This document shows, in pieces, positions 6,300 to 32,402 of a stretch of DNA of 46,012 nt. The stretch is from Treponema sp. GTDB lineage: Bacteria; Spirochaetota; Spirochaetia; Treponematales; Breznakiellaceae. The notes below the pieces were generated by a model, which saw only the letters and a list, made by a program, of their open reading frames with translations, ran no database searches and was not told the origin of the DNA. The position numbers were made by a program, and so were the translations under genes. Numbering within the stretch: the stretch's first letter is position 1; each line of letters opens with the position of its first letter. Location of the stretch: contig WQXG01000020.1 of assembly GCA_009784975.1 (NCBI GenBank), positions 1 through 46,012 on the forward strand. Reading direction: 5' to 3'.

Positions 6300-6328
6300 T
6301 TGTTTAAATTAAAATAATAAGTTATAAA
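6300..6328 (+). promoter_or_regulatory. Putative promoter of the chemotaxis receptor gene
   Basis: TTGTTT (6300-6305), 17 nt, TATAAA (6323-6328). The -10 box ends only 8 nt before the ATG at 6337 and no Shine-Dalgarno is present, so the mRNA would be leaderless or nearly so. A flagellar-type sigma factor could be used instead. Confidence 0.45.
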
Positions 6329-6336
6329 AGATCTAT

Positions 6337-8178
6337 ATGAAAACATCTAAATTTTTAATTTCTTTCTGGATGCTTGTACTTTTTACCGGATTAGCCATGC
6401 TGTTGGCAGACTTCCTGTTATTGCTCTTTTTCCATAGTTCCTTTTCGCAGATTGGCTTAAGATTTGTGATTCCGGGGCTGGTTTTTCTTGTTATTTATTG
6501 CATTGTTCTGGGAAGGAGCGCCGGGTGCTTCCATAAATCATTTTTTAAGAATGCCCGGGAAGATGAGTTTTTAAAAAGGCTTAAAAAAATGGGTTCTGTG
6601 CCTATTAAAATGATAGCGTTAAATGTGCTGCTTCATGCCGCCTTTTTGGGTTTTATCTTTTTTAACAATGATTATCTGTATCTGGAAAAAAATATGCAAA
6701 GTCCCCTGTTCCTTGCCTCTTTGGCATTCGGAATGCTGGTTGGAACTTTTATATATGTGGTAAGCGACGGGCTGGTTTCCCGTATTCTGATACATTATGC
6801 TTTTACCGAATATCCGCGGGAACTCCGGGAAAGACGGCAGGAACTAAAAGCCATGATAATCCCCATGGCGGCGGTTCTTATGGCATTGGTTTTTGCCTGT
6901 TCTGTTACATTGCTTGCTGCCGGCGAAGAGCCGGAAAATATGTGGTTTACAATACTTGTTCCGATTATCGTTGTGTTTATATGCGTGACTATTCTGAGTA
7001 TAACTCTGAAAAAAAACGCATCCAGGCTTTTCTCTTCTGTCATTGAACAGCTTGAAAATCTTTCTTCTGATCAAAAGGATTTAAGAAAACGCGTTACAGT
7101 CTGTTCTGTTGACGAGCTGGGTACCATTGCCGGAATGGTAAATGAATTCAGCGATCACCTGTGCAAAGGAATAGCGGAAATTAAAACAGGACAGAAAGAG
7201 CTTTTTGAAGCAGGAGATCAGCTTGAACATAACGCTTCCAGCATGGCTGATTCCATTGAACAGATTTCTGTTGCCGCAGATCATGTGTTTGTTAAAACTC
7301 AAGGTCAGATGAAAAGCGTCGATAATTCCTCTGATGCAGTGCAGCGGATATCAGATCACATTATTGCTCTGGATGCGTCAATTCATGTTCAGTCATCAAG
7401 TATGAGCCAGGCTTCTGCGGCAGTAGAGCAGATGGTAGGTAACATCTCTTCCATCGGTTCTGTGACGGAAAAAATGGCTTCACAGTTCAGGACTGTAGGG
7501 GAAGCGTCTGATGCAGGGAGCACAATTCAGAAAGAAAGCGCAGAACGTATACGGGAGATTGTGTCGCAGTCCCAGGCTTTACAGGAAGCGAATAAAATTA
7601 TTGCGAATATTGCAGCCCAGACCAATTTGCTTGCCATGAACGCAGCCATTGAAGCAGCCCATGCCGGAGAAGCGGGCAAGGGATTTTCCGTAGTAGCGGA
7701 CGAGATTCGCAAATTGGCGGTTAATTCATCGACTGAGTCCAAAAAAATCGGCGCTGATTTAAGACAAATTATTAAAATAATAGATATGATTGTAAAAGAT
7801 GCCGAGTCTACAACAGACGCCTTTCTGGAAGTTTCCCGGCGTATTCGCGATACGGATACTTTGGTGCTGGAAGTTGATAATGCTGTCCGTGAACAGAAGA
7901 TAGGTGCCAGTCAGGTAATGGAATCCCTGAGGGTGATGAACGATCTTACCTCAAGAGTTAATCTTGGCTCTCAGGAAATGAGCCGCGGTAACGAGGTTAT
8001 GCTGAGGGAAATACATGCTCTTCAGATTAGCTCAAAAGAAATATTAACCCGCATGGAAGAGATTTCTGAAGGTTTTAAAAACATTAATTCAAGCGCTCAC
8101 AGGGTGTCCGATCTGGCAGTTAATACCCGGTCCTCCATTCAGAAGATTTCCGTAATTGCCGACGGGTTTGAAGTTTGA
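6337..8178 (+). CDS. Methyl-accepting chemotaxis protein with six predicted N-terminal helices
   Basis: The 613-residue receptor has six hydrophobic segments in residues 1-226 (about 7-30, 40-59, 87-109, 124-148, 174-196, 205-226). It lacks the usual two-helix layout with a large periplasmic domain. A HAMP-like linker follows (about 225-285), then a long signalling coiled coil. The kinase-contact tip, [20 protein letters not shown], sits at about residues 425-445, with [15 protein letters not shown] just after. It would sense a membrane-linked or small stimulus and control CheA. No chemotaxis genes are adjacent. The initiation region lacks a Shine-Dalgarno. Family certain; ligand unknown. Confidence 0.93.
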
Positions 8179-8192
8179 TATCTCGACAAAGA

Positions 8193-8220
8193 TTGCGATT
8201 TTTTGTATTCTAGGTATATA
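8193..8220 (+). promoter_or_regulatory. Promoter of serC
   Basis: TTGCGA (8193-8198), 16 nt, TATATA (8215-8220). The leader of about 15-20 nt contains GGAG ahead of the serC ATG at 8243. Confidence 0.5.
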
Positions 8221-8242
8221 ACACTAATTTTGGAGAAAAACC

Positions 8243-9340
8243 ATGCGAGTTTACAATTTTTCCCCCGGACCTTCGGTTCTGCCATTGCCGGTTCTTGAAA
8301 AAGCCGCTGCCGAAATGACAAATGCCAACGGCACGGGTCAGTCGGTTATGGAGATGAGCCATCGTTCCAAAGATTACAAGCCCATTATCGACAAGACAGA
8401 GTCCCTGCTGCGCGAACTTATGGGTATCCCGGCAAATTATAAAGTTCTGTTTTTACAGGGAGGGGCATCTCTTCAGTTTGCAATGGTTCCCCTTAATCTT
8501 GCCGCAGGTAATGCGCCCGGTCAGGGAAAAAAAGCCGCCTATATCGACACAGGTGTGTGGTCTGATAAAGCCATAAAAGAAGGCAAAAAATACGCCAATG
8601 TTGAGGTTAGGGCAAGTTCCAAAGACAAAGCGTACACATACATTCCCGATGCTCCGCCTCCTTTGGCAGGAGATGCCTATTATCATATAACCCAGAATAA
8701 TACAATCGTTGGAACCAAATGGGATAAAATTCCTGATACAGGCTCTGTTCCGCTGATCACGGATATTTCTAGCAGCATTCTTTCTGAACCTTTTGATGTC
8801 AGTAAATTCGGCATCCTCTATGCCGGCGCGCAGAAAAACCTGGGACCTGCCGGCGTTACCGTTGTCATTATCCGTGAAGATTTAATTGGCCATGCGCCTG
8901 ACTGGACGCCGATCATGCTTCGCTACGATACGCATTCTACTGAAGGTTCAATGTACAATACTCCTCCTTGCTACAGCATCTACATGATAGGTCTTGTTTT
9001 GGAATGGATTAAAAATCTGGGCGGTGTTGACGCGATTGCAAAAATAAACCGGGAAAAAGCCGGAATGTTTTACGATTACCTTGATGCCTCAAAGATGTTT
9101 TATTCTCCGGTAGAAAAACAATTCCGCAGTTTAATGAATATCCCGTTTGTAATAAGAGAAACCGATGAGGCAAAGAAAACCGAACTGGAAACCCGCTTTG
9201 TTAAGGAAGCAGCGGCTGCCGGTCTTGTAAACCTTGCAGGTCATCGTCTTGTCGGCGGAATGAGGGCAAGTATCTACAATGCAATGCCGGTTGACGGCGT
9301 AAATGCATTGATTAGCTTTATGAAAAAATTTGAAAACTAA
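8243..9340 (+). CDS. serC: Phosphoserine aminotransferase
   Basis: The 365-residue class-V PLP aminotransferase converts 3-phosphohydroxypyruvate and glutamate to phosphoserine, step two of serine synthesis. The family start YNFSPGPSVLP is clear. The PLP lysine is K198 in YAGAQKNLGPAG, and the motifs GTGQSVMEMSHRS and HSTEGSMYNTPPCYSIY match SerC. GGAG precedes the ATG. serA follows 3-12 nt downstream depending on the serA start, giving a compact serine operon. SerC can also serve pyridoxal-phosphate synthesis in some bacteria. Confidence 0.96.
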   Translation: MRVYNFSPGPSVLPLPVLEKAAAEMTNANGTGQSVMEMSHRSKDYKPIIDKTESLLRELMGIPANYKVLFLQGGASLQFAMVPLNLAAGNAPGQGKKAAYIDTGVWSDKAIKEGKKYANVEVRASSKDKAYTYIPDAPPPLAGDAYYHITQNNTIVGTKWDKIPDTGSVPLITDISSSILSEPFDVSKFGILYAGAQKNLGPAGVTVVIIREDLIGHAPDWTPIMLRYDTHSTEGSMYNTPPCYSIYMIGLVLEWIKNLGGVDAIAKINREKAGMFYDYLDASKMFYSPVEKQFRSLMNIPFVIRETDEAKKTELETRFVKEAAAAGLVNLAGHRLVGGMRASIYNAMPVDGVNALISFMKKFEN

Positions 9341-9352
9341 AAGGTGAAAAAT

Positions 9353-10522
9353 ATGTTTCGTATTCAAACACTGAATAAAATCTCTCCTATCGGGCTGGAA
9401 CTGTTCAGCAGGGACAAGTATGAAATCGCAAGCGATATTCCCAATCCGGATGCGATTTTGGTGCGCAGCGCAGACATGAACTCAATGGAGATACCGTCCT
9501 CTGTGCTGGCAATTGCCAGGGCAGGAGCCGGATATAACAATATTCCTGTTAAAAAATGCAGCGAAAGCGGGGTAGTGGTATTTAATACTCCCGGCGCAAA
9601 TGCCAATGCTGTTAAAGAACTTGCTCTTGCATCGCTTCTTCTTTCTTCCCGTAATGTAATAGGCGGAATAAACTGGGCTGCTTCACAAGCGGGCAATCCT
9701 GATATTGCAGAACTTGTAGAAAAGGAAAAATCCAAGTATACAGGACCTGAAATTAAGGGAAAGACACTCGGCGTAATCGGGCTTGGCGCAATCGGCGTTA
9801 TGGTTGCCAATGACGCATTGGCTTTAGGCATGAAGGTTATCGGTTTTGATCCGTATATTTCCGTAGATGCCGCATGGAACCTTTCAAGCGAAGTTGCCCG
9901 CGCCGATACCCTGGAAAGCCTTTTAATGAAATCTGATTATGTTACCCTGCACATTCCCCAAAGCGAAGCAACCAAGGGTATTTTGGACGAAGATAAATTC
10001 CGCATAATAAAAAAAGATGCCCGCATTATTAACTTCTCCCGCCAGGCGCTTGTAAAGGATAAGGATGTTGTTGCGGCGCTGGAAAGCGGAAAAATAAGCT
10101 GCTATGTTACGGATTTCCCGTCCCCTGAACTTTTAGCCTGTAAAAAAGTTATTGGTATTCCTCACCTTGGCGCGTCCACACCGGAAGCCGAAGACAACTG
10201 CGCGATAATGGCAGTTAAGCAGCTTATCAATTATCTTGAATACGGCTCTATACGCAATTCTGTTAATTTTCCGCAATGTAAACTTGAACAGCGTTTTCCG
10301 TACAGGCTGCTTGTTGTAAACCGCAATATTCCCAATATGGTTGGGCAAATTACAACAAATCTTGCAAGCGCAAATATTAATATTCAGGATTTAATAAATC
10401 ATCACCGCGATGATTATGGTTTTAGCATTATTGATACTGAGCAGAAAATACCTGATTCTGTACTGGATCAGATTCGTAAAGTAAACGGAATTATCAGGGT
10501 TAGAGCCTGCGTACAAGGATAG
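9353..10522 (+). CDS. serA: D-3-phosphoglycerate dehydrogenase with C-terminal ACT domain
   Basis: The enzyme oxidises 3-phosphoglycerate with NAD to 3-phosphohydroxypyruvate, step one of serine synthesis. The Rossmann fingerprint GVIGLGAIGVMVAND lies near 137-151. The catalytic Arg is in NFSRQALV, and the catalytic His in IPHLGASTPEAEDN. A short ACT domain (about 317-389, beginning RLLVVNRNIPNMVGQIT) suggests feedback control by an amino acid, usually serine. ATG 9353 is chosen because AAGGTG lies 6 nt before it; a GTG start at 9344 is possible. The order serC-serA is one operon. Confidence 0.94.
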   Translation: MFRIQTLNKISPIGLELFSRDKYEIASDIPNPDAILVRSADMNSMEIPSSVLAIARAGAGYNNIPVKKCSESGVVVFNTPGANANAVKELALASLLLSSRNVIGGINWAASQAGNPDIAELVEKEKSKYTGPEIKGKTLGVIGLGAIGVMVANDALALGMKVIGFDPYISVDAAWNLSSEVARADTLESLLMKSDYVTLHIPQSEATKGILDEDKFRIIKKDARIINFSRQALVKDKDVVAALESGKISCYVTDFPSPELLACKKVIGIPHLGASTPEAEDNCAIMAVKQLINYLEYGSIRNSVNFPQCKLEQRFPYRLLVVNRNIPNMVGQITTNLASANINIQDLINHHRDDYGFSIIDTEQKIPDSVLDQIRKVNGIIRVRACVQG

Positions 10523-10534
10523 AAACTCCCGGCG

Positions 10535-11248
10535 ATGGAATTAAGTTTTAAAAGTATAAAAATGGAATTGGTAGTACCCCTGTTTGCAGGGGTGCTGTTG
10601 TCTCTTCTTCCCTGTGCTGCAATCGGCGCGGCTTACGGATATTTTCTTAAAAATGAAGCGCCTCAAATTACAGAAATTAATAATGAAGAAAAAGACGATT
10701 TTCTTTTTTTTGCATCAGAAAAAAAACCGGATCCTGTTTTGGAATATTACCGTAATCCGGATTTTAAGGAATGGGTTGTTGATTTTTTTGCCGGCATTTG
10801 CAGGAGCAGGGAAATAGCGCAGGCAATTCTTGAAAACACAGATCGTTATAATGTGCCGCCTGCGTTGGCTTTTGCATTAAGCTGGGAAGAGAGCAGGTTT
10901 AATCCCCGCGCGATAAACCGCAGTAACCGAGACGGAAGTATCGACCGCGGATTGTTTCAGTTAAATAACCGTTCCTTTCCCCATCTGGAGATACCCGTTT
11001 TTTATGAGATAGAAACAAATGCTCGTTACGGAATCAGCCATTTGCGGCATTGTCTTGATTCCGGAGGCAGTGATGTTTCCGCGCTGGCGATGTACAATGC
11101 CGGGGCGGGAAGGGTAAGGTCGACAGGGGCGCCGCATGTTACGCTAAATTACGCAAGCCGTATTCTGGAAAACCGTCAAAGGATAGAAAGCAGATTTCAC
11201 TCCAGGCTTATTCGAGAAGAGGAAGCGCGGCTGGATTCTCAGTTTTAA
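10535..11248 (+). CDS. Membrane-anchored lytic transglycosylase (SLT domain)
   Basis: The 237-residue protein has an N-terminal hydrophobic segment (about 11-37) that anchors it in or exports it across the inner membrane. An SLT-type peptidoglycan lytic transglycosylase domain fills about 95-225. The catalytic glutamate is E119 in SWEESRFNP. The family motifs GLFQLN and ALAMYNAGAGRV are present. It would cleave the MurNAc-GlcNAc bond for wall remodelling. It lies 12 nt after serA but lacks a good ribosome site at ATG 10535; an internal ATG at 10562 would shorten the N-terminus by 9 residues. A functional link with serine synthesis is not implied. Confidence 0.88.
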   Translation: MELSFKSIKMELVVPLFAGVLLSLLPCAAIGAAYGYFLKNEAPQITEINNEEKDDFLFFASEKKPDPVLEYYRNPDFKEWVVDFFAGICRSREIAQAILENTDRYNVPPALAFALSWEESRFNPRAINRSNRDGSIDRGLFQLNNRSFPHLEIPVFYEIETNARYGISHLRHCLDSGGSDVSALAMYNAGAGRVRSTGAPHVTLNYASRILENRQRIESRFHSRLIREEEARLDSQF

Positions 11249-11250
11249 AA

Positions 11251-11697
11251 CTATTCTGAAAGTATCACAAGAATTTCTTCTGCTGTCTTTGCTTTTAGAA
11301 TTTCTTCGCGTTTTTCGGAACTTTTGAATAAAAGGCTGATTTCTGCCAAAAATTGCAAATGCGGTCCGGTTTTTTCTACGGGAGAAATGGTCATAATGAA
11401 GATCCTGCACGGTTGTTTGTCAAGAGAATTAAAATCAACAGGATTTTCAGAAATTCCGATGCATGCAACCAAATCCTGCGTTGTGGCGGTTTTTCCGTGC
11501 GGGATGGCTATCCCGTGTTTCATACCGGTGGACATTTTTTCTTCCCTGTCCATTACTGCCGCAAAAGCAGCGTCCCTGTCCTGGATTTTCCCGGTTCTGA
11601 CAAGAATATCAAGCAATTCGTTGATAATTTCTTTCTTTGTGGTGCCCTTCAGGTGAAGGTCTATGGTATCGGTGCTTATTACTGTCTTGAGGTTCAT
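11251..11697 (-). CDS. ptsN: PTS EIIA domain protein (PtsN/fructose type)
   Basis: The single 148-residue EIIA domain has the phospho-accepting His67 in HGIAIPHGKT, the hallmark of fructose/mannitol and nitrogen-type EIIA. No EIIB or EIIC is fused or adjacent, so a regulatory PtsN-like role is more likely than sugar transport. The gene is convergent with the lytic transglycosylase (2 nt apart) and divergent from the sugar ABC operon, so it could signal carbon status to that locus. Its promoter places the predicted transcription start on the A of the ATG, and there is no Shine-Dalgarno. The symbol is at family level. Confidence 0.87.
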   Translation of the reverse strand: MNLKTVISTDTIDLHLKGTTKKEIINELLDILVRTGKIQDRDAAFAAVMDREEKMSTGMKHGIAIPHGKTATTQDLVACIGISENPVDFNSLDKQPCRIFIMTISPVEKTGPHLQFLAEISLLFKSSEKREEILKAKTAEEILVILSE

Positions 11698-11703
11698 GCA
11701 ATA

Positions 11704-11732
11704 ATTGTAACCTCAAAATTTCTGTAAGTCAA
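11704..11732 (-). promoter_or_regulatory. Leaderless promoter of the ptsN-like gene
   Basis: On the minus strand, TTGACT (11732-11727) is followed by 17 nt, TACAAT (11709-11704), then exactly 6 nt (TATTGC) and the ATG at 11697. The predicted +1 coincides with the start codon. Confidence 0.7.
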
Positions 11733-11766
11733 TGAATTTTTGGTGGATTTAATGAGAAACCCATTG

Positions 11767-11772
11767 TATAAT
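11767..11772 (+). promoter_or_regulatory. -10 box close to the sugar permease start
   Basis: A perfect TATAAT ends 5 nt before the ATG at 11778. No Shine-Dalgarno is seen and the -35 is weak (TGGATT at 11744-11749, 17-nt spacing). It may need an activator, and the mRNA may be leaderless. Confidence 0.5.
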
Positions 11773-11777
11773 GCTTT

Positions 11778-12692
11778 ATGCGCAGGACTTTGACCGCTAA
11801 ACGCCTTTTTAATCAACGGTACCTTCTATTAATGTCCGTTCCGTTCATTGTATGGCTTGTGGTATTTAAATATATTCCCATTTGGGGATGGACAATGGCT
11901 TTTCAGGACTATAAGCCCCACCTTGGTTTTTTTGATCAAACATGGGTGGGTTTTAGGTACTTTAAGGAATTGTTTAATGCTCCCCTTTTTTATCAGGCTT
12001 TGCAAAATACGCTGGGAATGAGTATTCTGGGGCTGGTTTTCGGCACCGTTTCCGCGCTTGGTTTTGCGCTCCTTTTAAATGAACTGCGTTTTCTTTCCTT
12101 TAAACGGTTTACCCAGACAGTTTCCTATTTGCCGCATTTTGTGTCGTGGGTAGTTACGGCAAATATAGTTACTTCTCTGTTATCCATAAACGGTCCCATA
12201 AACGAAATCCTTGTTTCGCTTAAAATAATCAGTGAGCCCATTAATGTAATGATTAAACCGGAATATTTTTGGTGGCTTGTGGTTTTTTCGGATATCTGGA
12301 AAGAAACAGGCTGGAATGCAATTATTTACCTTGCAGCAATGACAGGGATAGACAGTCAGGTATACGAGGCGGCAGAAATTGACGGGGCAAACCGTATTCA
12401 AAAAGTGTTTTTTATTACCCTGCCGGGCATCAGCACTACGATCTTTATCCTGCTAATTCTTAACATCGGCAATCTTGTTAACATTGGTTTTGAAAAACAA
12501 TTCCTGCTCGGCAATGCGGTAACCGCTACCAAAGCGCTTGTTCTGGATAAATACGCGCTGGATTACGGTATAGGACTTTTCAGGTTTTCTTTTGGAACTG
12601 CGATAGGTATATTCAAATCTGTTGTAAGTATTATTCTGCTGTTCGCCGCGAATTATCTGATAAAGAAATCCGGCAGGGGAAAACTTTTTTAG
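11778..12692 (+). CDS. Carbohydrate ABC transporter permease, LplB-like
   Basis: The 304-residue inner-membrane protein has about six helices. Its N-terminal style (RYLLLMSVPFIVWLVVFKYI, then GWTMAFQDYKP) is typical of LplB/YtcP-partner permeases for complex oligosaccharides. The ATPase-docking EAA loop is YEAAEIDGANRIQKVFFITLP (about 195-215). It pairs with the next gene (10-nt gap) and the binding lipoprotein at 13639. It probably imports the oligosaccharides cleaved by the downstream glycosidases. No ATPase gene is present, so a shared MsmK-type ATPase encoded elsewhere is inferred. Confidence 0.9.
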   Translation: MRRTLTAKRLFNQRYLLLMSVPFIVWLVVFKYIPIWGWTMAFQDYKPHLGFFDQTWVGFRYFKELFNAPLFYQALQNTLGMSILGLVFGTVSALGFALLLNELRFLSFKRFTQTVSYLPHFVSWVVTANIVTSLLSINGPINEILVSLKIISEPINVMIKPEYFWWLVVFSDIWKETGWNAIIYLAAMTGIDSQVYEAAEIDGANRIQKVFFITLPGISTTIFILLILNIGNLVNIGFEKQFLLGNAVTATKALVLDKYALDYGIGLFRFSFGTAIGIFKSVVSIILLFAANYLIKKSGRGKLF

Positions 12693-12702
12693 GGAGCATT
12701 AA

Positions 12703-13584: not shown

Positions 13585-13638
13585 GCAATGAACAAAGAAC
13601 AGAGAGATTGTTTTTATAATATTTTATAGGAGTTTAAA

Positions 13639-17294: not shown

Positions 17295-19954
17295 CCGGTC
17301 TTCCCAGCCAAATTCTCAAGAGCTTTTTCTGCGGAACTAAAATCGAATTTTTCTATGTGCATAATGAGTTCTTCGCTTCCAGATATTAATTTAAGGCTGT
17401 CTGTAAACTCCAGACATTCAGCATCGCTTGATTTTAGCAGAGGTTTCAGTTTTTCCAGCAATTTACGGGTTTCTTCGTTCGTTAAAGACGCCTGCGCCGC
17501 TTTCTGTGTTTCTGAATTTGCAGCCTCCAGCTCAAGTTCAGAAATAACTGAATTTAATTCTATTTGCAGCTTTTCCATTTGTTCCTGAGAAACAAGGTTT
17601 TTGCTGTTTACAAGATGGCTTTCAACCTCTTCGGCAGCCTGCTGCAAAGACTTTTTCTTTAACTGACCTGCGTTGCTTTTAAGAGTATGCACCAGTCTAT
17701 GCGCCAGTTTTATTTCGCCGTCATCCATTGCTTTTTCAATTTCATCGTATATATTTTTATTTTTATTAATGAATTGAACCTTAAGCTGTTTTTGTAATTT
17801 TTCATAAGCCATGTTTTCCCGTTTTTCATTTACAACGGTATAACTTTTTGGCTGAATATATGTCAATAAGCATCTCCATAGCTCCTGCGAAGTAAACGGT
17901 TTGCCGAGAGTGTCATACATTCCGCTTTTCCTGTAAATCTCCATGTCATTGGACATAATGTTTGCGGTTAATGCAACAATAGGTGTTTTAATACCCATCT
18001 CTGTTATTTTGGACGAAGCTTCCAATCCGTCCATTACAGGCATATGTATATCCATGAAGATCAAATCAAATTGTTTTTCGCCTGTTTTTATACGTTCAGC
18101 AACAATATCGACACCGTCTTTGCCGTTGCTTGCCACAACAGATTTTATACCCACTCTCGCCAAATGGTCGCAAATTACCTGCTGGTTAAGGCTGTTATCT
18201 TCACATATAAGAATTTCTCCGTCAAATTCCGGTTTTTCCAAATTGCTCAGTGTTATTTTTTTGGACAGCATATCAACGGTATCTTCGATTAATTCGAATG
18301 TCAGATCGAAGCTGAATTTGCTGCCAATCCCAACCGTGCTTTCAACGGCGAGTTTTCCGTTCATCAGCTCAATAAAATTCTTGGTAATTGTCAGCCCCAA
18401 ACCTGTGCCGCCGAATTCCCGCGTTACAGTATCGTCTGCCTGCATAAACGGTTCAAATATCCTTTTTATTTGTTCGGATGACATTCCGATCCCTGAGTCT
18501 TTTATTTCAAAATGCATGGTTACGTTTGATTCATCTGTTTTTACTATTGAAGCCAGGAGTTTAACCATGCCATTATTTGTAAATTTTACTGCGTTGGAAA
18601 GAAGGTTAAGAAGAATTTGACGCAGTCTTACGGGGTCGCCAAGCAGCTTCTTTTTAAAGGAAGGTTCCGCATAGCAATAAAGCGCTATGCCTTTTTCTTC
18701 GGCCTTGGGATTAATTAACATCTGGCAATGCGCAAAAATATCTGTTAAATCAAAAGGAATATGCTCAAGCACTATTTTCCCGGATTCGATTTTGGAGATG
18801 TCCAATATATCGTTGATAATATTCAGAAGCCATTTTGCGCTGTACTGTATTTTATCCAGATATTCCTTTGATTTCTGCGGCATATTGTCATCCTGCGCAA
18901 GTTCGGAAAATCCGATGATGCTGTTCATGGGCGTGCGTATCTCATGACTCATGTTGGCTAAAAAGATGGATTTGGCGGTATTGGCGGCTTCTGCACTCTG
19001 GCGCATATTTTCTACTTCATTCATCATGTCCTGCAATCGCTGCTCAATTACCCTGGAAATAAAAATCGCTATAATTAAACATGCAGCAAACACAAGAAGC
19101 GTTATTAATAAACCAACAAGTATAAAGACTTGTATTTTTCTGGTTTGCTCCTGAGTATAATATCCGGCAAAAACCATTCCTATAATTTCGTTGTTAACAC
19201 CGCGCAGCGGGACATACAGAGCCAGCACATCCCTGCCGAAAAGCTGTATTCTGTCAAAAAACGATTCCCCTGCCAGCACTTTTTCACTTATGTATTCCGC
19301 CGCATTTATTCCTAATGCGCTTCTGCCGCCCTCACCTATGATTGTAGAAGCAATGCGCTCTGTGTTTAAAAATATCGATACTTCGCATCCTATCTGCTCT
19401 TTTAGACTGTGTACGAAATTCTGGGTATCTAACCTTAACCCCAATGACATGGCGCCTATAATATTCGTTGTATCATAATATATCGGAGAACTGGCAACGA
19501 CTCCAAGACGTATGGTGCTGCCCGGCACGATGTAAGATTCAATTCTTCCCTCCAAAGCAGAGGTAATGTGAGGCTGCTGCGCAAGATTGTCGCCGAAGTT
19601 TTCGATATCATAAGTTCTTGCCAATACCGTTCCTGTGCTGTCAAGCACCGTGCAAAAATCAATTTGCGCCATTGCCTGCAGGGAAAAAGCTATGTCCGCG
19701 ATTCTTGTGCGGTTATTGTTTTTTATTGCCTCGCTTAGATTTTGATTGTCAGAAACCGCGAATGCCGCAAGACGCGCTTTGGATATCATCTCATCAATTT
19801 CCGCTTCTATCATGTTCATGGCGGTGACAGCTTTTTCCCGCATGGATTCTTTTAATTCCCTGTTAAAAAGCATTATAGAGGAAGCAAGCACAGCAGTCCC
19901 GCATAAAACAACCAGCACAACCATAGGAATTAAAATTCTTTTTTTTATGCTCAT
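17291..19954 (-). CDS. Hybrid sensor histidine kinase: Cache, HisKA, HATPase, receiver, Hpt
   Basis: Numbered from ATG 19954 (887 residues). Membrane helix 1 is about 7-27, an extracytoplasmic Cache-like sensor about 28-270, and helix 2 about 275-302. HisKA carries H337 in MSHEIRTPMN. The ATPase has an N-box (LLNLLSNAVKFTN), DSGIGM and GGTGLGL. The receiver has D635 in FMDIHMPVMDG. A C-terminal Hpt domain has H756 in LVHTLKSNAG. The phosphorelay output regulator is not in the window. ATG 19954 overlaps the upstream lipoprotein stop (ATGA); ATG 19966 is an alternative. The coupled lipoprotein may present ligand to the Cache domain. It probably controls the surrounding glycan genes (inference). 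Confidence 0.92.
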   Translation of the reverse strand: MSIKKRILIPMVVLVVLCGTAVLASSIMLFNRELKESMREKAVTAMNMIEAEIDEMISKARLAAFAVSDNQNLSEAIKNNNRTRIADIAFSLQAMAQIDFCTVLDSTGTVLARTYDIENFGDNLAQQPHITSALEGRIESYIVPGSTIRLGVVASSPIYYDTTNIIGAMSLGLRLDTQNFVHSLKEQIGCEVSIFLNTERIASTIIGEGGRSALGINAAEYISEKVLAGESFFDRIQLFGRDVLALYVPLRGVNNEIIGMVFAGYYTQEQTRKIQVFILVGLLITLLVFAACLIIAIFISRVIEQRLQDMMNEVENMRQSAEAANTAKSIFLANMSHEIRTPMNSIIGFSELAQDDNMPQKSKEYLDKIQYSAKWLLNIINDILDISKIESGKIVLEHIPFDLTDIFAHCQMLINPKAEEKGIALYCYAEPSFKKKLLGDPVRLRQILLNLLSNAVKFTNNGMVKLLASIVKTDESNVTMHFEIKDSGIGMSSEQIKRIFEPFMQADDTVTREFGGTGLGLTITKNFIELMNGKLAVESTVGIGSKFSFDLTFELIEDTVDMLSKKITLSNLEKPEFDGEILICEDNSLNQQVICDHLARVGIKSVVASNGKDGVDIVAERIKTGEKQFDLIFMDIHMPVMDGLEASSKITEMGIKTPIVALTANIMSNDMEIYRKSGMYDTLGKPFTSQELWRCLLTYIQPKSYTVVNEKRENMAYEKLQKQLKVQFINKNKNIYDEIEKAMDDGEIKLAHRLVHTLKSNAGQLKKKSLQQAAEEVESHLVNSKNLVSQEQMEKLQIELNSVISELELEAANSETQKAAQASLTNEETRKLLEKLKPLLKSSDAECLEFTDSLKLISGSEELIMHIEKFDFSSAEKALENLAGKTG

Positions 19955-20925
19955 CTGTGTGTCCATCTCTCCAGAAGCCGCTCCTTTTCTTCGGAGGTAT
20001 TGTTTGACATATCGGCATACCTGATATTTACCGGGTAATTAGGGAGTGTAAATTCCCTGTCATTAAAAATTCTTTCGGGGCAGAACATCAGCTTGTCCTT
20101 TTCCGTCCATACATTAACAATATAGTTAAAAACTTCACTGACTGCGCGGCGTGTTTCTTTACCTTTAATAATGCTGATGCCGTACAGCGAAAAAGGCGAG
20201 CCTTCCCTAAAAAAATGAATTCTCAGCGGAAAACCGTCATTAATCGCGCCGACTGTTTGCGCTGTCATGGAAAAACCGATTGCTGCATTTTTTTCTTTTA
20301 ATGCGTTAACAGGACCGGAACCGGAGCCGGTAAAACTTAAAACATTATTCGATAAAGCGTTAAAGTAGCTGAATGCCTCATCTTCACCCCATGCGTTTAC
20401 AAGGCTCTTTAAAAACATATAACCTGTACCGGAGGATAAAGGGTTAGGCATGGAAACAAGGCCCTTATAAATGGGTTTTAATAAATCGGCATAACTTTCC
20501 GGGACAGGGAGTCCTCGTTCAGAAAGCACCATTCTGTTAACCGCGATACAGCCGCCGTTACGGTACCACGGCAGATACCTTGCTTTTTCCGGAACCATGT
20601 CGGCAGTAAAAATACTTGTGTCATATGCGGATAAATCAGCCAATAACTCAATTATTCTGTCAAGATTGGCATATTCCATTTCGCCGATGATATCACATTC
20701 GGTATCCGTTCCCTCGGCAAGGAGCCTGGTTAGCAGATCGCCGGTAGAGTAATATTCTATACGAATGTCGTATTTTGGAAATCTGGCATTAAGGTCTGCC
20801 TGCATCGCCTCGTTGCGGTATTCCTCCGCGCTGGTATAGATAACAACAGAATTACCGTCCTTGCCGCAGGCGGACAGGACCATACACAGGCATAAAGCCA
20901 TAAGCAGAAGAATATTCTTTTTCAT
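19951..20925 (-). CDS. Solute-binding lipoprotein coupled to the sensor kinase (iron/spermidine-type SBP fold)
   Basis: The 324-residue lipoprotein has a signal ending in LSAC, lipid Cys20. The mature part starts VVIYTSAEEYRNEAM and has SGTGYMFLKSLVNAWGEDEAF and GSGSGPVNALKEKNAAIGFS, as in family-1 Fe3+/spermidine-type binding proteins. No permease or ATPase accompanies it. Its stop overlaps the kinase start, so sensing rather than uptake is likely, as in TorT-TorS or LuxP-LuxQ style pairs. It has a consensus promoter with a -10 box exactly 6 nt before the ATG. The ligand is unknown; a sugar or sugar phosphate fits the locus. Confidence 0.82.
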   Translation of the reverse strand: MKKNILLLMALCLCMVLSACGKDGNSVVIYTSAEEYRNEAMQADLNARFPKYDIRIEYYSTGDLLTRLLAEGTDTECDIIGEMEYANLDRIIELLADLSAYDTSIFTADMVPEKARYLPWYRNGGCIAVNRMVLSERGLPVPESYADLLKPIYKGLVSMPNPLSSGTGYMFLKSLVNAWGEDEAFSYFNALSNNVLSFTGSGSGPVNALKEKNAAIGFSMTAQTVGAINDGFPLRIHFFREGSPFSLYGISIIKGKETRRAVSEVFNYIVNVWTEKDKLMFCPERIFNDREFTLPNYPVNIRYADMSNNTSEEKERLLERWTHR

Positions 20926-20931
20926 AACAAA

Positions 20932-20960
20932 ATTTTAGCAAAAAATAACCATAAATGCAA
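20932..20960 (-). promoter_or_regulatory. Leaderless promoter of the sensor lipoprotein-kinase operon
   Basis: On the minus strand, TTGCAT (20960-20955), 17 nt, TAAAAT (20937-20932), then 6 nt (TTTGTT) and the ATG at 20925. No Shine-Dalgarno is present. Confidence 0.65.
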
Positions 20961-21000
20961 CAAAAAACTTCCGCAAGGGGCCCCCACAGCGCCCTTATGT

Positions 21001-21028
21001 TTGACAATTTTAATTATTTTAATATAGA
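21001..21028 (+). promoter_or_regulatory. Promoter of the transglutaminase-like lipoprotein
   Basis: Perfect TTGACA (21001-21006), 16 nt, TATAGA (21023-21028); TAGAAT at 21025-21030 with 18 nt is equivalent. AGGAG then precedes the ATG at 21051, so this gene has a conventional leader. Confidence 0.7.
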
Positions 21029-21050
21029 ATAGTTCGACAGGAGTATAAAA

Positions 21051-22019: not shown

Positions 22020-22023
22020 AATT

Positions 22024-24309: not shown

Positions 24310-24316
24310 TAATCTA

Positions 24317-24346
24317 ACTATAACATATGTTTTTTGTTATTGATAA
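24317..24346 (-). promoter_or_regulatory. Promoter of GH95
   Basis: On the minus strand, TTATCA (24346-24341), 18 nt, TATAGT (24322-24317), then 7 nt to the ATG at 24309. No Shine-Dalgarno. Likely leaderless or with a 1-nt leader. Confidence 0.5.
24322..24331. promoter_or_regulatory. Palindrome AACATATGTT between divergent GH95 and GH31 genes
   Basis: A perfect 10-bp inverted repeat lies in the 61-bp divergent region. It touches the GH95 -10 box and lies where the GH31 -35 should be, so a regulator bound here could control both genes. Confidence 0.35.
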
Positions 24347-24348
24347 TG

Positions 24349-24354
24349 TATAAT
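24349..24354 (+). promoter_or_regulatory. -10 box of GH31
   Basis: Perfect TATAAT with a poor -35 (TATGTT at 24326-24331). AGGAG follows at 24360-24364, so the leader is very short but includes a ribosome site for ATG 24371. Confidence 0.5.
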
Positions 24355-24370
24355 ACGCTAGGAGTAAAAA

Positions 24371-26377: not shown

Positions 26378-26378
26378 C

Positions 26379-26406
26379 TTGCGTATCCATCAAGGTGTGA
26401 TATAAT
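26379..26406 (+). promoter_or_regulatory. Promoter of the GH74 gene
   Basis: TTGCGT (26379-26384), 16 nt, perfect TATAAT (26401-26406). A conventional leader carries AGGAGG 5 nt before ATG 26432. Confidence 0.7.
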
Positions 26407-26431
26407 TAGAATTTAATATTAGGAGGAATAA

Positions 26432-28834: not shown

Positions 28835-28842
28835 ATGTTTTT

Positions 28843-28874
28843 ATAGTCCGCAGGGTACTGCGGACTATTTTTTT
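28843..28874 (+). terminator. Intrinsic terminator after GH74
   Basis: An 11-bp perfect stem, ATAGTCCGCAG (28843-28853) with CTGCGGACTAT (28858-28868), a GGTA loop and a seven-T run. It closes the glycan locus on the plus strand. Confidence 0.92.
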
Positions 28875-29415
28875 AAACTGACTTTAATAGTTCTTCTATT
28901 GATTCTCTGATAACAATTTTTTGTTTTTTTATAAAGTCATTGGTTTCATTCAGTTTTTGCTCTTGTTTTTCGCGCTGCTTTTTTAATTTATTCAAATTAC
29001 TGAATAATCTGGTAAAAAAATTAGTCTTTTTGCTTTCCAGATTTTTAATTTGTACTTCTTTGTCTATTAAATCATTTAACAAATCTTCGCTTTCTTTTTC
29101 TTTTTCCTGTAATTCTCTAAATATCTTTTGCAGTTCTTTTAATCTTTTTTCTATATTTAAAATTAATTCTTCATTTTCTTTTATTTCTTGTATGTATTCT
29201 TCAATTGTTTTTCTGATTTTTTCTTCTTTTGCCTTTTTGATTTTGTCATCTATTTTTTTAAAAAATGAGCTTATGCCCTTGCCTGTCCCTTTAACAGCTC
29301 TTTTTATGCCTTTAAACCAGCCTCTTATCAATCCAATAATTGCAAAAGCTACCGCCAAAACAATAATGACCAATACAAATACCAATACCGTATTAACATC
29401 CAGATTTCCCGACAT
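28873..29415 (-). CDS. Membrane-anchored coiled-coil protein of unknown function
   Basis: The 180-residue protein has one N-terminal hydrophobic helix (about 8-31, VNTVLVFVLVIIVLAVAFAI). A basic juxtamembrane stretch follows, then a long Lys/Glu-rich coiled coil from about 55 to 175. No enzymatic motif was seen. Its stop codon lies in the T-run of the GH74 terminator. AAGGCGG precedes the ATG, and the promoter is perfect. The AAG/GAA-rich composition makes similarity searches unreliable. A scaffold or envelope-spacer role is possible. Confidence 0.6.
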   Translation of the reverse strand: MSGNLDVNTVLVFVLVIIVLAVAFAIIGLIRGWFKGIKRAVKGTGKGISSFFKKIDDKIKKAKEEKIRKTIEEYIQEIKENEELILNIEKRLKELQKIFRELQEKEKESEDLLNDLIDKEVQIKNLESKKTNFFTRLFSNLNKLKKQREKQEQKLNETNDFIKKQKIVIRESIEELLKSV

Positions 29416-29442
29416 TTATTCCGCCTTTTAAGGTTTTTTTGC

Positions 29443-29471
29443 ATTATAGCTCTTTACTTGTTTCAGGTCAA
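29443..29471 (-). promoter_or_regulatory. Promoter of the coiled-coil membrane protein gene
   Basis: On the minus strand, TTGACC (29471-29466), 17 nt, TATAAT (29448-29443), then a leader of about 20 nt with a ribosome site. It overlaps the opposing pth promoter. Confidence 0.72.
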
Positions 29472-29486
29472 TATTTCCTGTAAGAT
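29458..29486 (+). promoter_or_regulatory. Leaderless promoter of pth
   Basis: TTGTTT (29458-29463), 17 nt, TAAGAT (29481-29486), 6 nt (TTAATT), ATG at 29493. No Shine-Dalgarno. Confidence 0.65.
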
Positions 29487-29492
29487 TTAATT

Positions 29493-30143
29493 ATGATAAA
29501 ACTTGCCGCTTTTTTCGGCAACCCCGGAACAGGTTATGCCCGAAACAGACACAATGCAGGGCGGATGCTCTCTTATTCGCTCCCTTTCTACCCGTCCCTC
29601 TCATGGCAGAAAAAATTCAAGGGGCTTTATGCTTCTTTTAACGGGAATCACTTTATCATGCCGGAAACATACATGAACCTTTCAGGAGAGGCAGTTCATG
29701 CTGTTTCTTCGTTTTATAAAATTAAAACAGAGGAAATAATCGTAGTCCATGATGAGCTGGAACTGCCTCTTGGGACAATTTCCCTTAAATTTTCCGGCGG
29801 TCTTGGCGGGCACAACGGGCTTCGCTCAATGAACAAATGTTTCGGCAATGCGGACTTTTGGCGGATACGGATCGGTATAGGCCGCCCGGACGCACGGCTG
29901 CCCGGCGAAGGAGGTCCCGCAGGAAGCGGCGTGGCAAGCAAAGCTTGCCTTGGCATCATCGACTGGGTACTCACAGATTTTTCCAAAACAGAACAGGAAC
30001 AGCTAATCCCGGTATTCGACGCCGGCGCAGGACTGCTAAATCAATTATTCACAACCGACCCCGAAACAATGCTGGACGAATGGAAAAAGAAAAAAATCTC
30101 AATAAATAAAACACCTGAGAATAAAGAAAATATAGAGGTATAA
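29493..30143 (+). CDS. pth: Peptidyl-tRNA hydrolase
   Basis: The 216-residue cytosolic enzyme releases peptides from tRNA after abortive translation. Catalytic H20 and substrate-contacting N10 are at the same numbers as in E. coli (FFGNPGTGY, NRHNAGRM). The motifs PETYMNLSGEAV, VVHDELELPLG and GGLGGHNGLRSM are complete. A Gly/Ala-rich insertion (about 131-145, DARLPGEGGPAGSGV) replaces the usual short loop before the C-terminal lid. The first gene of a pth-mazG-pfkA group. The mRNA is predicted to be leaderless. Confidence 0.95.
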   Translation: MIKLAAFFGNPGTGYARNRHNAGRMLSYSLPFYPSLSWQKKFKGLYASFNGNHFIMPETYMNLSGEAVHAVSSFYKIKTEEIIVVHDELELPLGTISLKFSGGLGGHNGLRSMNKCFGNADFWRIRIGIGRPDARLPGEGGPAGSGVASKACLGIIDWVLTDFSKTEQEQLIPVFDAGAGLLNQLFTTDPETMLDEWKKKKISINKTPENKENIEV

Positions 30144-30146
30144 AAA

Positions 30147-30215
30147 ATGAAACTTCAAACTACAACTCTGCGATCTCTGCGCCTCTGCGTCTCTGCGAGA
30201 AAAAAAGGAAATTAA
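30147..30215 (+). CDS. 22-codon repeat-derived ORF coupled to mazG
   Basis: ATG at 30147 follows GAGGT at fair spacing, and the ORF ends with TAA at 30213-30215, directly abutting the mazG ATG. Its core is the translated GCG repeat (LRSLRLCVSARKKG). It may be no more than a consequence of the repeat, or a leader peptide that couples translation to mazG. No homologous function is known to me. Confidence 0.3.
   Translation: MKLQTTTLRSLRLCVSARKKGN
30165..30205 (+). repeat. GCG repeat copy between pth and mazG
   Basis: CTCTGCGATCTCTGCG, then CCTCTGCG, TCTCTGCG and AGAAAA. The mazG ribosome site (AAAAAAGGAA) begins at the repeat's 3' edge. Confidence 0.82.
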
Positions 30216-31028
30216 ATGAAAACAAGCGAGACATTTCAGGCACTATACGACACCATAGCAAAACTGCGCAGTCCCGAAGGCTGCAAATGGGACAGGGAGC
30301 AAACTCCGTCTACTCTAAGAGGCGCATTGGTAGAAGAAACCTACGAGTGTCTTGAAGCAATCGACAATAACGATACCGCGCATATCGCAGAAGAGCTGGG
30401 AGATATATTTCTTCTTGCAACCATGCTCGGCTACATGTTTGAACAGGAGAGCAAGTTTTCTGTCGCCGATGTTTTAACGGGGATTAATGAAAAGCTAATT
30501 CGCCGGCATCCCCATGTTTTTGGTGATGTAAAAGTAAAGGATACTTCTGAAATTCTTGATAATTGGGCGGCAATTAAAGTGCAGGAAGGGCGCAAGCCAA
30601 AGGACTCAATTTTAGATGAAGTTAGTTCCGGCATTCCGCCGATGGATCGTTCCTATGCGCTGCAAAAAAAAGCCGCAAAAGCCGGTTTTGACTGGCAGGA
30701 TGTAAACGGCGTAATTGAAAAAATTGCCGAAGAACTGGAAGAAGTCCGCGAAGAGCACGCTATAAATGGTGTACCCGGCGGCAACAGGAACCAATTGGAA
30801 GAAGAGCTTGGGGATTTGCTTTTTTCTGTGATTAATCTTTGCCGGTTTTTAAAAATCGATCCTTCGGTTGCTCTTAATCGAACCAACAGCAAATTTATAG
30901 AGCGCTTTAAACATGTAGAAAAAAAGATGAAAGAAACCGGACAGGAGATGAAACAGGAAAATCTGGATATTATGGAATCATTCTGGAACGAGGCTAAAAT
31001 CTCTCTTGAATCCCCCCATGTTTTTTGA
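30216..31028 (+). CDS. mazG: Nucleoside triphosphate pyrophosphohydrolase
   Basis: The 270-residue protein has two MazG domains. The first holds CKWDREQTPSTL, then the metal ligands in EETYE and EELGD (about 45-70). The second holds a similar EELEEVRE and EELGDLLFSVINL (about 165-205). It hydrolyses NTPs to NMPs plus pyrophosphate and helps clear non-canonical nucleotides. An RBS GGAA lies within AAAAAAGGAAATTAA. The promoter of the next gene, pfkA, lies inside the last codons. Confidence 0.94.
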   Translation: MKTSETFQALYDTIAKLRSPEGCKWDREQTPSTLRGALVEETYECLEAIDNNDTAHIAEELGDIFLLATMLGYMFEQESKFSVADVLTGINEKLIRRHPHVFGDVKVKDTSEILDNWAAIKVQEGRKPKDSILDEVSSGIPPMDRSYALQKKAAKAGFDWQDVNGVIEKIAEELEEVREEHAINGVPGGNRNQLEEELGDLLFSVINLCRFLKIDPSVALNRTNSKFIERFKHVEKKMKETGQEMKQENLDIMESFWNEAKISLESPHVF

Positions 31029-31034
31029 TATAAC
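31006..31034 (+). promoter_or_regulatory. Leaderless promoter of pfkA
   Basis: TTGAAT (31006-31011), 17 nt, TATAAC (31029-31034), 6 nt (ATAATT), ATG at 31041. It sits mostly inside the end of mazG. No Shine-Dalgarno. Confidence 0.68.
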
Positions 31035-31040
31035 ATAATT

Positions 31041-32126
31041 ATGGCTATTCACAGTGTTACAAAACGCTTCGGTATCCTTACGGCGGGCGGCGACTGTCCC
31101 GGTTTGAACGCCGCTATTCGCGGAGTGTGCCGCGCTGCTCATGATCGTTATGGCATGGAAATTATCGGTATTGCCAATGGTTTTAGGGGTCTTATTAACG
31201 AAGACACAAAAATACTGCATCCCGAAGATTTTTCCGGTATTTTAACACGCGGCGGAACCATACTTGGCTCCAGCAGGGAAAAACCTTTTGCGCCTGTCGA
31301 TAAAGATGAATTGGCAAGCACCAAAGTTTCTGCCATTAAAGAAACATATTCCAGGCTCGGTCTTGATTGCCTTGTTGTGCTTGGAGGAAACGGAACCAAT
31401 ACCACAGGCTGCAAGCTTTCCCGCGAAGGACTCAATGTAATAGGGCTACCCAAAACAATTGATAATGATATTGCCGGCACAGACAGAACATTTGGTTTTC
31501 ATTCCGCTCTTGCTATCGGCACAGAAGCAATCGATCGTCTTCACTCAACAGCGCAAAGCCACAGCCGCATTATCGTGATCGAACTTATGGGCAACAAAGC
31601 CGGCTGGCTTGCCTTGTATGCAGGGGTTGCAGGCGGCGGCGATGTTATTCTAATTCCGGAAATTCCCTATGATCTAAAAGCCATTGCCCGCCATCTGGAA
31701 AAACGCGCAAAATCCGGAAAAACATTTTCGATTGTTGTTGTCGCAGAAGGCGCAATGTCAATCGAAGAAGCATCAATGGAAAAAAAAGAACGAAAAAAAT
31801 ACCGCAGCGATAACGGTCCTTCCACAGGTTACCGCATTGCCCGCGAAATCGAAGAAAAAACCGGAATGGAAACCCGCGCCACAGTTTTAGGTTATGTGCA
31901 GCGCGGCGGCATTCCCAGCGCATCTGACCGTGTCCTTGCCACTAGCCTTGGCACCGCAGCGGCAGATCTTCTTGCAGCCGACAAATACGGCCGCATGGTC
32001 GCTCTTCTTGGAAACGAAATTGGCTCTGTAGATTTAAGCGTACCTGAAGGTAAAGTTAAAAATGTACCCGCAGATCACTTTATGATTGACACAGCAAAAG
32101 CCGTAGGCACCTGCATGGGAGAGTGA
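31041..32126 (+). CDS. pfkA: 6-phosphofructokinase family enzyme, phosphoryl donor uncertain
   Basis: The 361-residue enzyme phosphorylates fructose 6-phosphate. Motifs are GGDCPGLNAA (16-25), LGGNGTNT (114-121), PKTIDNDIAGTD (137-148) and GYVQRGGIPSASDR. Gly118 matches the glycine that marks ATP-type enzymes. Lys138 in PKTIDND matches the lysine of PPi-type enzymes, where ATP-PFK has Gly. Asn117 replaces the Mg-binding Asp of the GGDG motif. This mix belongs to a subgroup in which the donor cannot be predicted safely. It probably makes the committed step of glycolysis. Confidence 0.9.
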   Translation: MAIHSVTKRFGILTAGGDCPGLNAAIRGVCRAAHDRYGMEIIGIANGFRGLINEDTKILHPEDFSGILTRGGTILGSSREKPFAPVDKDELASTKVSAIKETYSRLGLDCLVVLGGNGTNTTGCKLSREGLNVIGLPKTIDNDIAGTDRTFGFHSALAIGTEAIDRLHSTAQSHSRIIVIELMGNKAGWLALYAGVAGGGDVILIPEIPYDLKAIARHLEKRAKSGKTFSIVVVAEGAMSIEEASMEKKERKKYRSDNGPSTGYRIAREIEEKTGMETRATVLGYVQRGGIPSASDRVLATSLGTAAADLLAADKYGRMVALLGNEIGSVDLSVPEGKVKNVPADHFMIDTAKAVGTCMGE

Positions 32127-32157
32127 CGTGGGGCGGATGTCCCATGAATCAACGTTG

Positions 32158-32367
32158 CTATTTCACTCCGTCTTTCTGCTTAAACGACGGGCAATTTGCG
32201 CCTGTGGCGCGGAAAACTTCGTGCGAAGGAAGATGAACACACATTATGGAAAACAATTCACAAACACGCGGAGGATAATTGGGATCCCATGAAATTTTAA
32301 AATGAACGCACTTCAGGCAATTGGGCGGGCGTGAAGGGATAGCTGCTTCGTTATATGTGCCGTTCAT
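32158..32367 (-). CDS. Small Cys-rich conserved protein (69 aa)
   Basis: Four to five cysteines (NCLKCVHF, RVCELFSIMC, GANCPSF) and LPSHEVFRATG form a compact pattern I recall from small conserved bacterial proteins, common in spirochaetes; a metal-binding fold is likely. Function unknown. ATG 32367 is preferred to TTG 32382: TTG overlaps the -10 box, while the ATG lies exactly 6 nt after it. Convergent with pfkA, 31 nt apart. Confidence 0.72.
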   Translation of the reverse strand: MNGTYNEAAIPSRPPNCLKCVHFKISWDPNYPPRVCELFSIMCVHLPSHEVFRATGANCPSFKQKDGVK

Positions 32368-32373
32368 TTTTTT

Positions 32374-32402
32374 ACTATACAATATGGATTTTCTGGTTGC
32401 AA
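32374..32402 (-). promoter_or_regulatory. Leaderless promoter of the small Cys-rich gene
   Basis: On the minus strand, TTGCAA (32402-32397), 17 nt, TATAGT (32379-32374), 6 nt (AAAAAA), ATG at 32367. No Shine-Dalgarno. Confidence 0.72.

Follow-up and report, generated by a model that had tools for sequence, protein, structure and literature searches.

In the genome of Treponema sp. (GCA_009784975.1), a minority class of genes carries a promoter whose -10 box ends exactly 6 nt before the start codon (N6), and these genes are most probably transcribed with sigma-70 from the A of the ATG and translated as leaderless mRNA, a reading to which a probability of about 0.87 was assigned. What was computed directly is the layout itself, its overrepresentation both here and in most genomes sampled from the class, the shortage of Shine-Dalgarno sites, the opening of reading frames and the conservation at ptsN. 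According to the proposed mechanism, the housekeeping sigma-70 RNA polymerase would transcribe from promoters with the -10 box ending 6 nt before the start codon. RNA polymerase usually begins about 7 nt past the -10 box, which here would be the A of the ATG; the mRNA would then lack a 5' leader, or have one of about 1 to 3 nt where the spacing is N7 to N9. A leaderless mRNA would be unable to use the Shine-Dalgarno contact, and its 5'-terminal AUG would be read, probably by assembled 70S ribosomes. For these genes we infer from sequence which sigma factor acts, where the RNA begins and how it is translated, the RNA start being deduced from the promoter spacing together with the pyrimidine-purine step described below.

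The window, i.e. the whole stretch analysed, comprises 46,012 nucleotides (positions 1 to 46,012 of contig WQXG01000020.1; all coordinates are those of the forward strand). An earlier note had claimed five TTGnnn-N17-(-10)-N6-ATG sites, and each letter of them agrees with the window sequence. The ptsN promoter (11698..11732, minus strand) consists of the -35 box TTGACT (11732-11727), N17, the -10 box TACAAT (11709-11704) and N6 before the ATG at 11697; the ptsN-like gene (11251..11697, minus strand) encodes a PTS EIIA type 2 protein of 148 aa (Pfam PF00359, E 3.4e-34, domain from residue 6). The second promoter (20926..20960, minus strand; TTGCAT, N17, TAAAAT, N6, ATG 20925) precedes a gene at 19951..20925 (minus strand) which had been labelled a sensor lipoprotein; the protein matches solute-binding protein families (SBP_bac_6), and the label is corrected here to solute-binding lipoprotein. 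The pth promoter (29458..29492, plus strand; TTGTTT, N17, TAAGAT, N6, ATG 29493) is followed by the gene for a peptidyl-tRNA hydrolase of 216 aa (29493..30143, plus strand; Pfam PF01195), and the pfkA promoter (31006..31040, plus strand; TTGAAT, N17, TATAAC, N6, ATG 31041) by that for a phosphofructokinase of 361 aa (31041..32126, plus strand; Pfam PF00365, E 2.5e-103). The fifth promoter (32368..32402, minus strand; TTGCAA, N17, TATAGT, N6, ATG 32367) belongs to the gene for a small Cys-rich protein of 62 aa (32181..32367, minus strand), which had no match in the Pfam search and is kept in the family, being present in 50 of 58 genomes. The strict pattern TTG-N20-TAnnnT-N6-ATG matched the window only four times, at four of these five sites; pfkA falls outside it due to its -10 box, TATAAC.

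The three near matches proposed alongside these sites are all present in the window as layouts. They were found at N7 (24310..24346, minus strand; TTATCA, N18, TATAGT, N7, ATG 24309), at N5 (11744..11777, plus strand; weak -35 box TGGATT, N17, TATAAT, N5, ATG 11778) and at N8 in front of a chemotaxis receptor gene (MCPsignal; 6300..6336, plus strand; TTGTTT, N17, TATAAA, N8, ATG 6337). However, the ATGs of the N5 and N8 cases are without independent confirmation, because the gene caller puts the starts at 11832 rather than 11778 and at 6589 rather than 6337.

One alternative would be that AT-rich upstream DNA contains -10-like boxes by chance and that five fitting cases were picked from them. 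The genome has 42% GC and TAnnnT is common in it at any spacing: a scan for TAnnnT-N6-ATG without a -35 box gave no excess, with 273 matches at N6 and 205 to 352 at other spacings. The N6 signal therefore depends on the -35 box, and with a -35 box at N17 it was several-fold above the controls. In the whole genome, TTGnnn-N17-TAnnnT-N6-ATG was found 115 times (57+58), compared with 26 (13+13) for the reversed pattern and 38 (18+20) for the N12 version. In the 446-kb sample used for the detailed tests (17% of the genome), 22 matches were obtained at N6, whereas each of 16 other spacings between N2 and N18 yielded 2 to 13; frames of at least 60 aa were opened by 21 of the 22 N6 matches as opposed to 27 of 112 at the other spacings. 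The signal was also specific to a -35/-10 spacer of 17 (22 matches, 21 open), since spacers of 14-16 and 18-20 resulted in 3 to 8 matches each. The architecture thus corresponds to the sigma-70 form TTGACA/17/TATAAT, and the -10 box stands above chance at the fixed short distance of bacterial leaderless (TA-led) genes, its first T lying about 12 bp ahead of the start codon. The strict promoter was found at N6 from GTG as well, and three of three such sites had frames of at least 60 aa. A scan of starts and a comparison with shuffled upstream regions had been proposed in the earlier note; the former, carried out on the sample and, as a pattern search, genome-wide, gave an excess at exactly N6 that is anti-correlated with Shine-Dalgarno, and in the latter the N6 peak of the start-site model was missing from four shuffles. 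A chance origin of the class was rejected by the reversed pattern, the other spacings, the shuffles and the spacer length, and is hardly credible, although individual N6 sites could be due to chance.

A start-site mixture model was fitted to 315 genes, its -10 motif both starting from and converging on TATAAT. Two classes were obtained side by side: a Shine-Dalgarno class (GGAG, mostly 4-6 nt ahead of the start) with about 56% of the genes, and a class with the TATAAT motif and a spacing peak at N6 with about 9%. A Shine-Dalgarno match of at least 4/6 was present in 2 of 27 N6 genes and in 195 of 288 others; the proposal that the N6 genes are without Shine-Dalgarno sites holds for most of them, as for bacterial TA-led leaderless genes. 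Since most other genes of the same genome start by Shine-Dalgarno, two initiation modes would coexist, as had been suggested. The start codon was ATG in all 27 N6 calls, AUG being the typical start codon of bacterial leaderless genes. Doubt attaches to five of the 27 calls, which contain no TA- hexamer. For pth the model favoured other spacings and gave N6 a weight of 0.09. Among the 20 genes listed with weight at N0/N1, most represent AT-rich starts, and some, e.g. pth, have a promoter at N6 to N9 instead.

It is also conceivable, but unlikely, that the promoters are real and transcription nevertheless begins elsewhere, either further downstream or from a second promoter upstream, with translation beginning at an internal start or behind a longer leader without Shine-Dalgarno, for instance with the assistance of S1. 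An upstream gene on the same strand lies within 40 bp of 6 of 23 N6 genes (83 of 167 for Shine-Dalgarno genes), which leaves some room for such starts. In the window, mazG (30216-31028) ends 12 bp before pfkA and its 3' end contains the pfkA -35 box; pfkA could alternatively be expressed from a longer mRNA. Ribosomal protein S1 was above the cut-off in 5 relatives tested and gave only a weak partial match in this genome, where intact rpsA was not found. Of 6 genomes searched for the anti-SD motif, 3 contained it and the present one did not; the absence of both this motif and an intact rpsA here is attributed to a putatively incomplete assembly. On the other hand, the domains of several N6 proteins begin at residues 2 to 9 (deformylase 2, response regulator 4, ParA 5, EIIA 6, SecA 7, PFK 9), and that of pth at residue 7, which leaves little room for a downstream start and argues that the ATG is the true one. 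A pyrimidine at position -1 was observed in 18 of 21 strict N6 genes and in 70 of 157 Shine-Dalgarno genes (p 0.0004), which is consistent with transcription from the A of the ATG. Neither this excess nor the exact N6 spacing would be explained if the RNA began elsewhere, and the spacing at ptsN is preserved among relatives. A start on the A of the ATG is thus the preferred reading.

The N6 layout was surveyed among relatives by accepting an in-frame ATG anywhere between 60 nt before and 30 nt after the expected start. For ptsN, in all 30 loci examined from the same order the promoter was followed by an in-frame ATG at a distance of 6 to 9 nt, the ATG being 6 or 33 nt upstream of the expected start in five of them, and an N6 to N10 layout was found in 18 of 27 further loci of the class. 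In the alignment of the ptsN promoters the box columns are conserved through the pattern selection, so only the spacer and flank columns are informative; the spacer sequence was not conserved. Two aligned loci (L205 and L206) matched elsewhere than at the ptsN start and are to be dropped, and two others (L186 and L194) are off-pattern.

The ptsN promoters often have in common a C before TTGAC and TTGACTTTT, and a nearly identical promoter was found at two paralogous AAA-ATPase genes, as might be expected if a special sigma factor or regulator served a dedicated regulon, in place of ordinary sigma-70 promoters drifted up to the ATG. Against this, the boxes fit the ordinary TTGACA/TATAAT consensus, a C precedes TTG in only 9 of 22 cases, and the 20 N6 proteins scanned outside the window have mixed functions (SecA, deformylase, ParA, phosphorylase, amino acid kinase and others). 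A dedicated regulon is therefore very improbable, and ordinary sigma-70 promoters are favoured. With regard to ptsN, it may tentatively be proposed, at somewhat less than even odds, that the gene has been leaderless since ancient times in much of the class Spirochaetia, its promoter keeping its distance from the ATG even as the spacer sequence diverged without constraint. On that view, selection may have favoured leaderless initiation as a regulatory feature of this gene that couples the amount of EIIA to the state of the ribosomes or initiation factors, and the layout would not be a product of promoter drift.

Outside ptsN, the N6 layout turns over between relatives, as was observed with pth, pfkA and the solute-binding protein gene. 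For pth, used as a control, the layout was found in 2 of 30 loci of the same order, the window's own included; of 16 spirochaete pfkA loci, 6 had it at N6 or N7, and so did 4 of the 12 family loci examined for the small Cys protein, again including the window's. In G177, a genome of the same genus, Shine-Dalgarno-like sites are present at pth and at the solute-binding protein gene. This genome has 85 N6 sites; of 30 examined as loci, 21 open at least 60 aa. Six proteins from these 21 match the 446-kb sample: two are N6 in both genomes, one stands at about N5 in the present genome and three are different or not comparable. In a sample of G138, at least 60 aa were opened by 12 of 17 N6 sites and by 22 of 55 sites at other spacings (p 0.05). 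The opening of frames at N6 sites is less clean in these two relatives than here.

Within the class, the N6 count exceeded the N12 count in 57 of 60 genomes. Seven of the 60 missed p 0.01, and three of the seven, from a single family (f5), were without any excess. Beyond the class the excess was weaker and absent from some genomes.

Leptospira interrogans belongs to the same phylum as Treponema. By dRNA-seq, about 440 of its mRNAs were reported to have a 5' UTR under 10 nt, and 184 (30 C) and 170 (37 C) genes to start exactly at the start codon (PMC5243855); these starts were mapped by experiment, whereas ours are predicted from sequence, and the -10/ATG layout of the leaderless genes is not given in the available part of that source. 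Zheng et al. (2011, PMC3160421) reported leaderless genes in 6 of 18 Spirochaetes genomes, with a mean of 3.9% (1.8 to 6.9). The remark that leaderless mRNAs had not been described as common in this group was thus right only in part. The TANNNT of their TA-led genes, about 12 bp upstream of the start from its first T, is the same as the N6 layout, and their mean and our value of about 9% at N6 in a one-genome sample are only roughly comparable since the methods differ. A further difference from that report (PMC3160421) is the excess seen here in most genomes sampled from the class. In Deinococcus-Thermus, TANNNT directly before about 30% of ORFs leads to leaderless mRNA, as tested experimentally (PMC12340547; the word spirochaet is absent from its main text). 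There too a TANNNT class stands beside a GGAG class; the class described here is a smaller minority and has a -35 box at N17. In the open-access library searched, outside of which most subscription journals lie, no report of leaderless mRNA in Treponema or of a leaderless ptsN was found; the two Treponema papers using the word leaderless most prominently refer to antimicrobial peptides or carry it in a reference title, and the ptsN match was unrelated.

Leaderless genes in Spirochaetes are already known, and the freshest part of the present results is the conserved ptsN layout. The results suggest that, among spirochaetes, leaderless starts extend beyond Leptospira and serve the Treponema lineage, and most genomes sampled from its class, as a regular second mode. 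Gene finders which score Shine-Dalgarno alone may misplace starts in such genomes, and at ptsN the layout is conserved enough to ask what purpose the leaderless mode would have.

Rereading of the window sequence gave exact agreement with the earlier note for all five stretches, each with TTGnnn, 17 bases, a -10 box, 6 bases and ATG. The genes were real, as Pfam identified an EIIA-type ptsN, a solute-binding protein (the former "sensor lipoprotein"), a peptidyl-tRNA hydrolase (pth) and a phosphofructokinase (pfkA). The fifth, a Cys-rich protein of 62 aa (window 32181-32367, minus strand), had no Pfam match and was present in 50/58 family genomes; its N-terminus is variable and it carries a CLKC-like motif. 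A 223-aa protein encoded at 38590-39261 (minus strand) was matched by DUF4116 in six stretches. The source genome comprises 2.60 Mb in 73 contigs and is 95% complete, the window being contig C20. The nearest named relatives based on pfkA were mostly metagenome assemblies labelled Treponema sp., and from the isolate names of the relatives we take them to be gut spirochaetes, probably from termite gut.

The strict pattern, TTG-N20-TAnnnT-N6-ATG, occurred 115 times in the whole genome, compared with 26 for its reverse and 38 with N12 in place of N6. In a 446-kb sample (the window and 20 further stretches), N6 gave 22 matches and each of the 16 other spacings from N2 to N18 gave 2 to 13. Frames of ≥60 aa were opened by 21 of these 22 matches versus 27/112 at the other spacings. 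With a spacer of 17 bases between the boxes 22 matches were obtained, and with 14-16 or 18-20 bases 3 to 8 each. When the -35 box was left out of the pattern, no excess was detected at N6. In 176 kb of G138, a genome of the same family, a clear N6 peak was found (17 versus 0 to 7 at other spacings), with frames opened by 12/17 N6 matches versus 22/55 elsewhere (p 0.05). The 3.1 Mb of G138 contain 241 strict N6 matches and 26 reversed ones, the top count among 198 phylum genomes.

The proposed scan of starts was conducted on 315 genes called from the 446-kb sample, using a mixture model with free spacing seeded with AGGAGG and TATAAT. The two initiation modes suspected earlier were recovered side by side: a GGAG-like class mostly 4 to 6 nt from the start (56% of genes), and a class retaining TATAAT with a weight of 0.216 at N6 (about 9% of genes) and also 0.071 and 0.158 at N0 and N1, respectively. 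Four dinucleotide-shuffled controls gave N6 weights between 0.011 and 0.075, and none retained the Shine-Dalgarno motif. The 27 genes assigned to N6 (posterior >0.5) included three of the five initial genes; the N6 weight of pth was only 0.09 and the small Cys gene was absent from the 315-gene list. The assignment is doubtful for five of the 27, which lack a TA- hexamer.

Shine-Dalgarno sites (at least 4/6 matches) were rare in N6 genes, 2/27 versus 195/288 of the others, and all 27 started with ATG. A Pfam scan covered 20 of the 24 N6 proteins encoded outside the window and gave matches for 18, of mixed functions. A domain started 2 to 7 residues past the ATG in several, which argues for this ATG as the real start. 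Near-identical N6 promoters are shared by two AAA-ATPase_like/PDDEXK_9 paralogues located at separate sites (L118:11967-13585 and L130:17385-19009).

Across the 198 phylum genomes, the strict pattern clearly outnumbered its reverse in most members of the order and class. Outside the class the excess was weaker, and in some genomes absent (41 versus 49 in G004; 67 versus 87 in G181). Within 60 class genomes, N6 exceeded N12 in 57 (uncorrected p <0.01 in 53), with totals of 4181 and 1462. The three genomes with no N6 excess over N12 (G076, G101 and G106) all belong to one family, f5, and are 1.0 to 1.5 Mb in size.

A ptsN match was found in 58/58 order genomes. All 30 best-scoring order loci, a choice that favours closer relatives, had a TTG/TAnnnT promoter upstream of an in-frame ATG, at a distance of 6 nt (19 loci), 7 nt (8), 8 nt (2) or 9 nt (1). 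Among 27 further class loci, the promoter was present at N6 to N10 in 18, including two weak cases (L271, L279), and absent at these spacings in 9. A GGAG or AGGA site is present in four of the latter (L277, L283, L290, L291); in another three (L286, L289, L292) the match is an EIIA domain within a protein of about 720 aa. The spacer between the ptsN boxes was not conserved in the alignment without rows L205 and L206. In L177-L204 (two stray rows dropped), a C lies immediately 5' of TTGAC in 21/25 distinct rows and TTGACTTTT often recurs upstream; neither belonged to the search pattern. A C before TTG is not general in N6 promoters of the source genome (9/22).

The pth loci, handled like ptsN (30 loci from 55 genomes with a match), had N6 in two, including the source genome, and N3 in one. 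N6 or N7 was detected in 6/16 spirochaete pfkA loci surveyed out of 80; the 12 loci of the small Cys gene comprised 4 with N6 or N7, 3 with N10 to N12 and 5 with none of these. A Shine-Dalgarno-like site was found instead at pth and the solute-binding protein in a same-genus relative (G177). Compared with ptsN, these surveys indicate at the sequence level that single genes enter and leave the N6 mode while ptsN has retained it.

A sigma-70 promoter with its start point on the A of the ATG would be the simplest account, and the resulting leaderless mRNA would be translated from its 5'-terminal AUG; we infer both this RNA 5' end and this way of translation. RNA polymerase favours a purine start following a pyrimidine. 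A pyrimidine precedes the A in 18/21 strict N6 matches with a frame versus 70/157 Shine-Dalgarno genes, which fits an RNA start on that A. Ribosomal protein S1 was above the cut-off in 5/5 relatives tested and the usual anti-Shine-Dalgarno end was found in 3/6 genomes, so the ribosomes of those relatives look ordinary.

Leaderless genes marked by a TANNNT some 12 bp ahead of the start are already known from bacteria; 6/18 Spirochaetes genomes have them, with a mean share of 3.9% (PMC3160421), and about 440 short-leader mRNAs were mapped in Leptospira interrogans (PMC5243855). A like layout is reported for Deinococcus-Thermus, in about 30% of ORFs there (PMC12340547). Six Spirochaetes species had a mean of -3.25 on a component that a comparative study connects with bacterial leaderless or S1 signals (PMC5397173), a negative value which is qualified by the present N6 counts. 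No report of leaderless mRNA in Treponema or of a leaderless ptsN was found in the open-access literature searched. The N6 layout belongs to the already known kind of leaderless genes, and the part worth following is the conserved, putatively leaderless ptsN.
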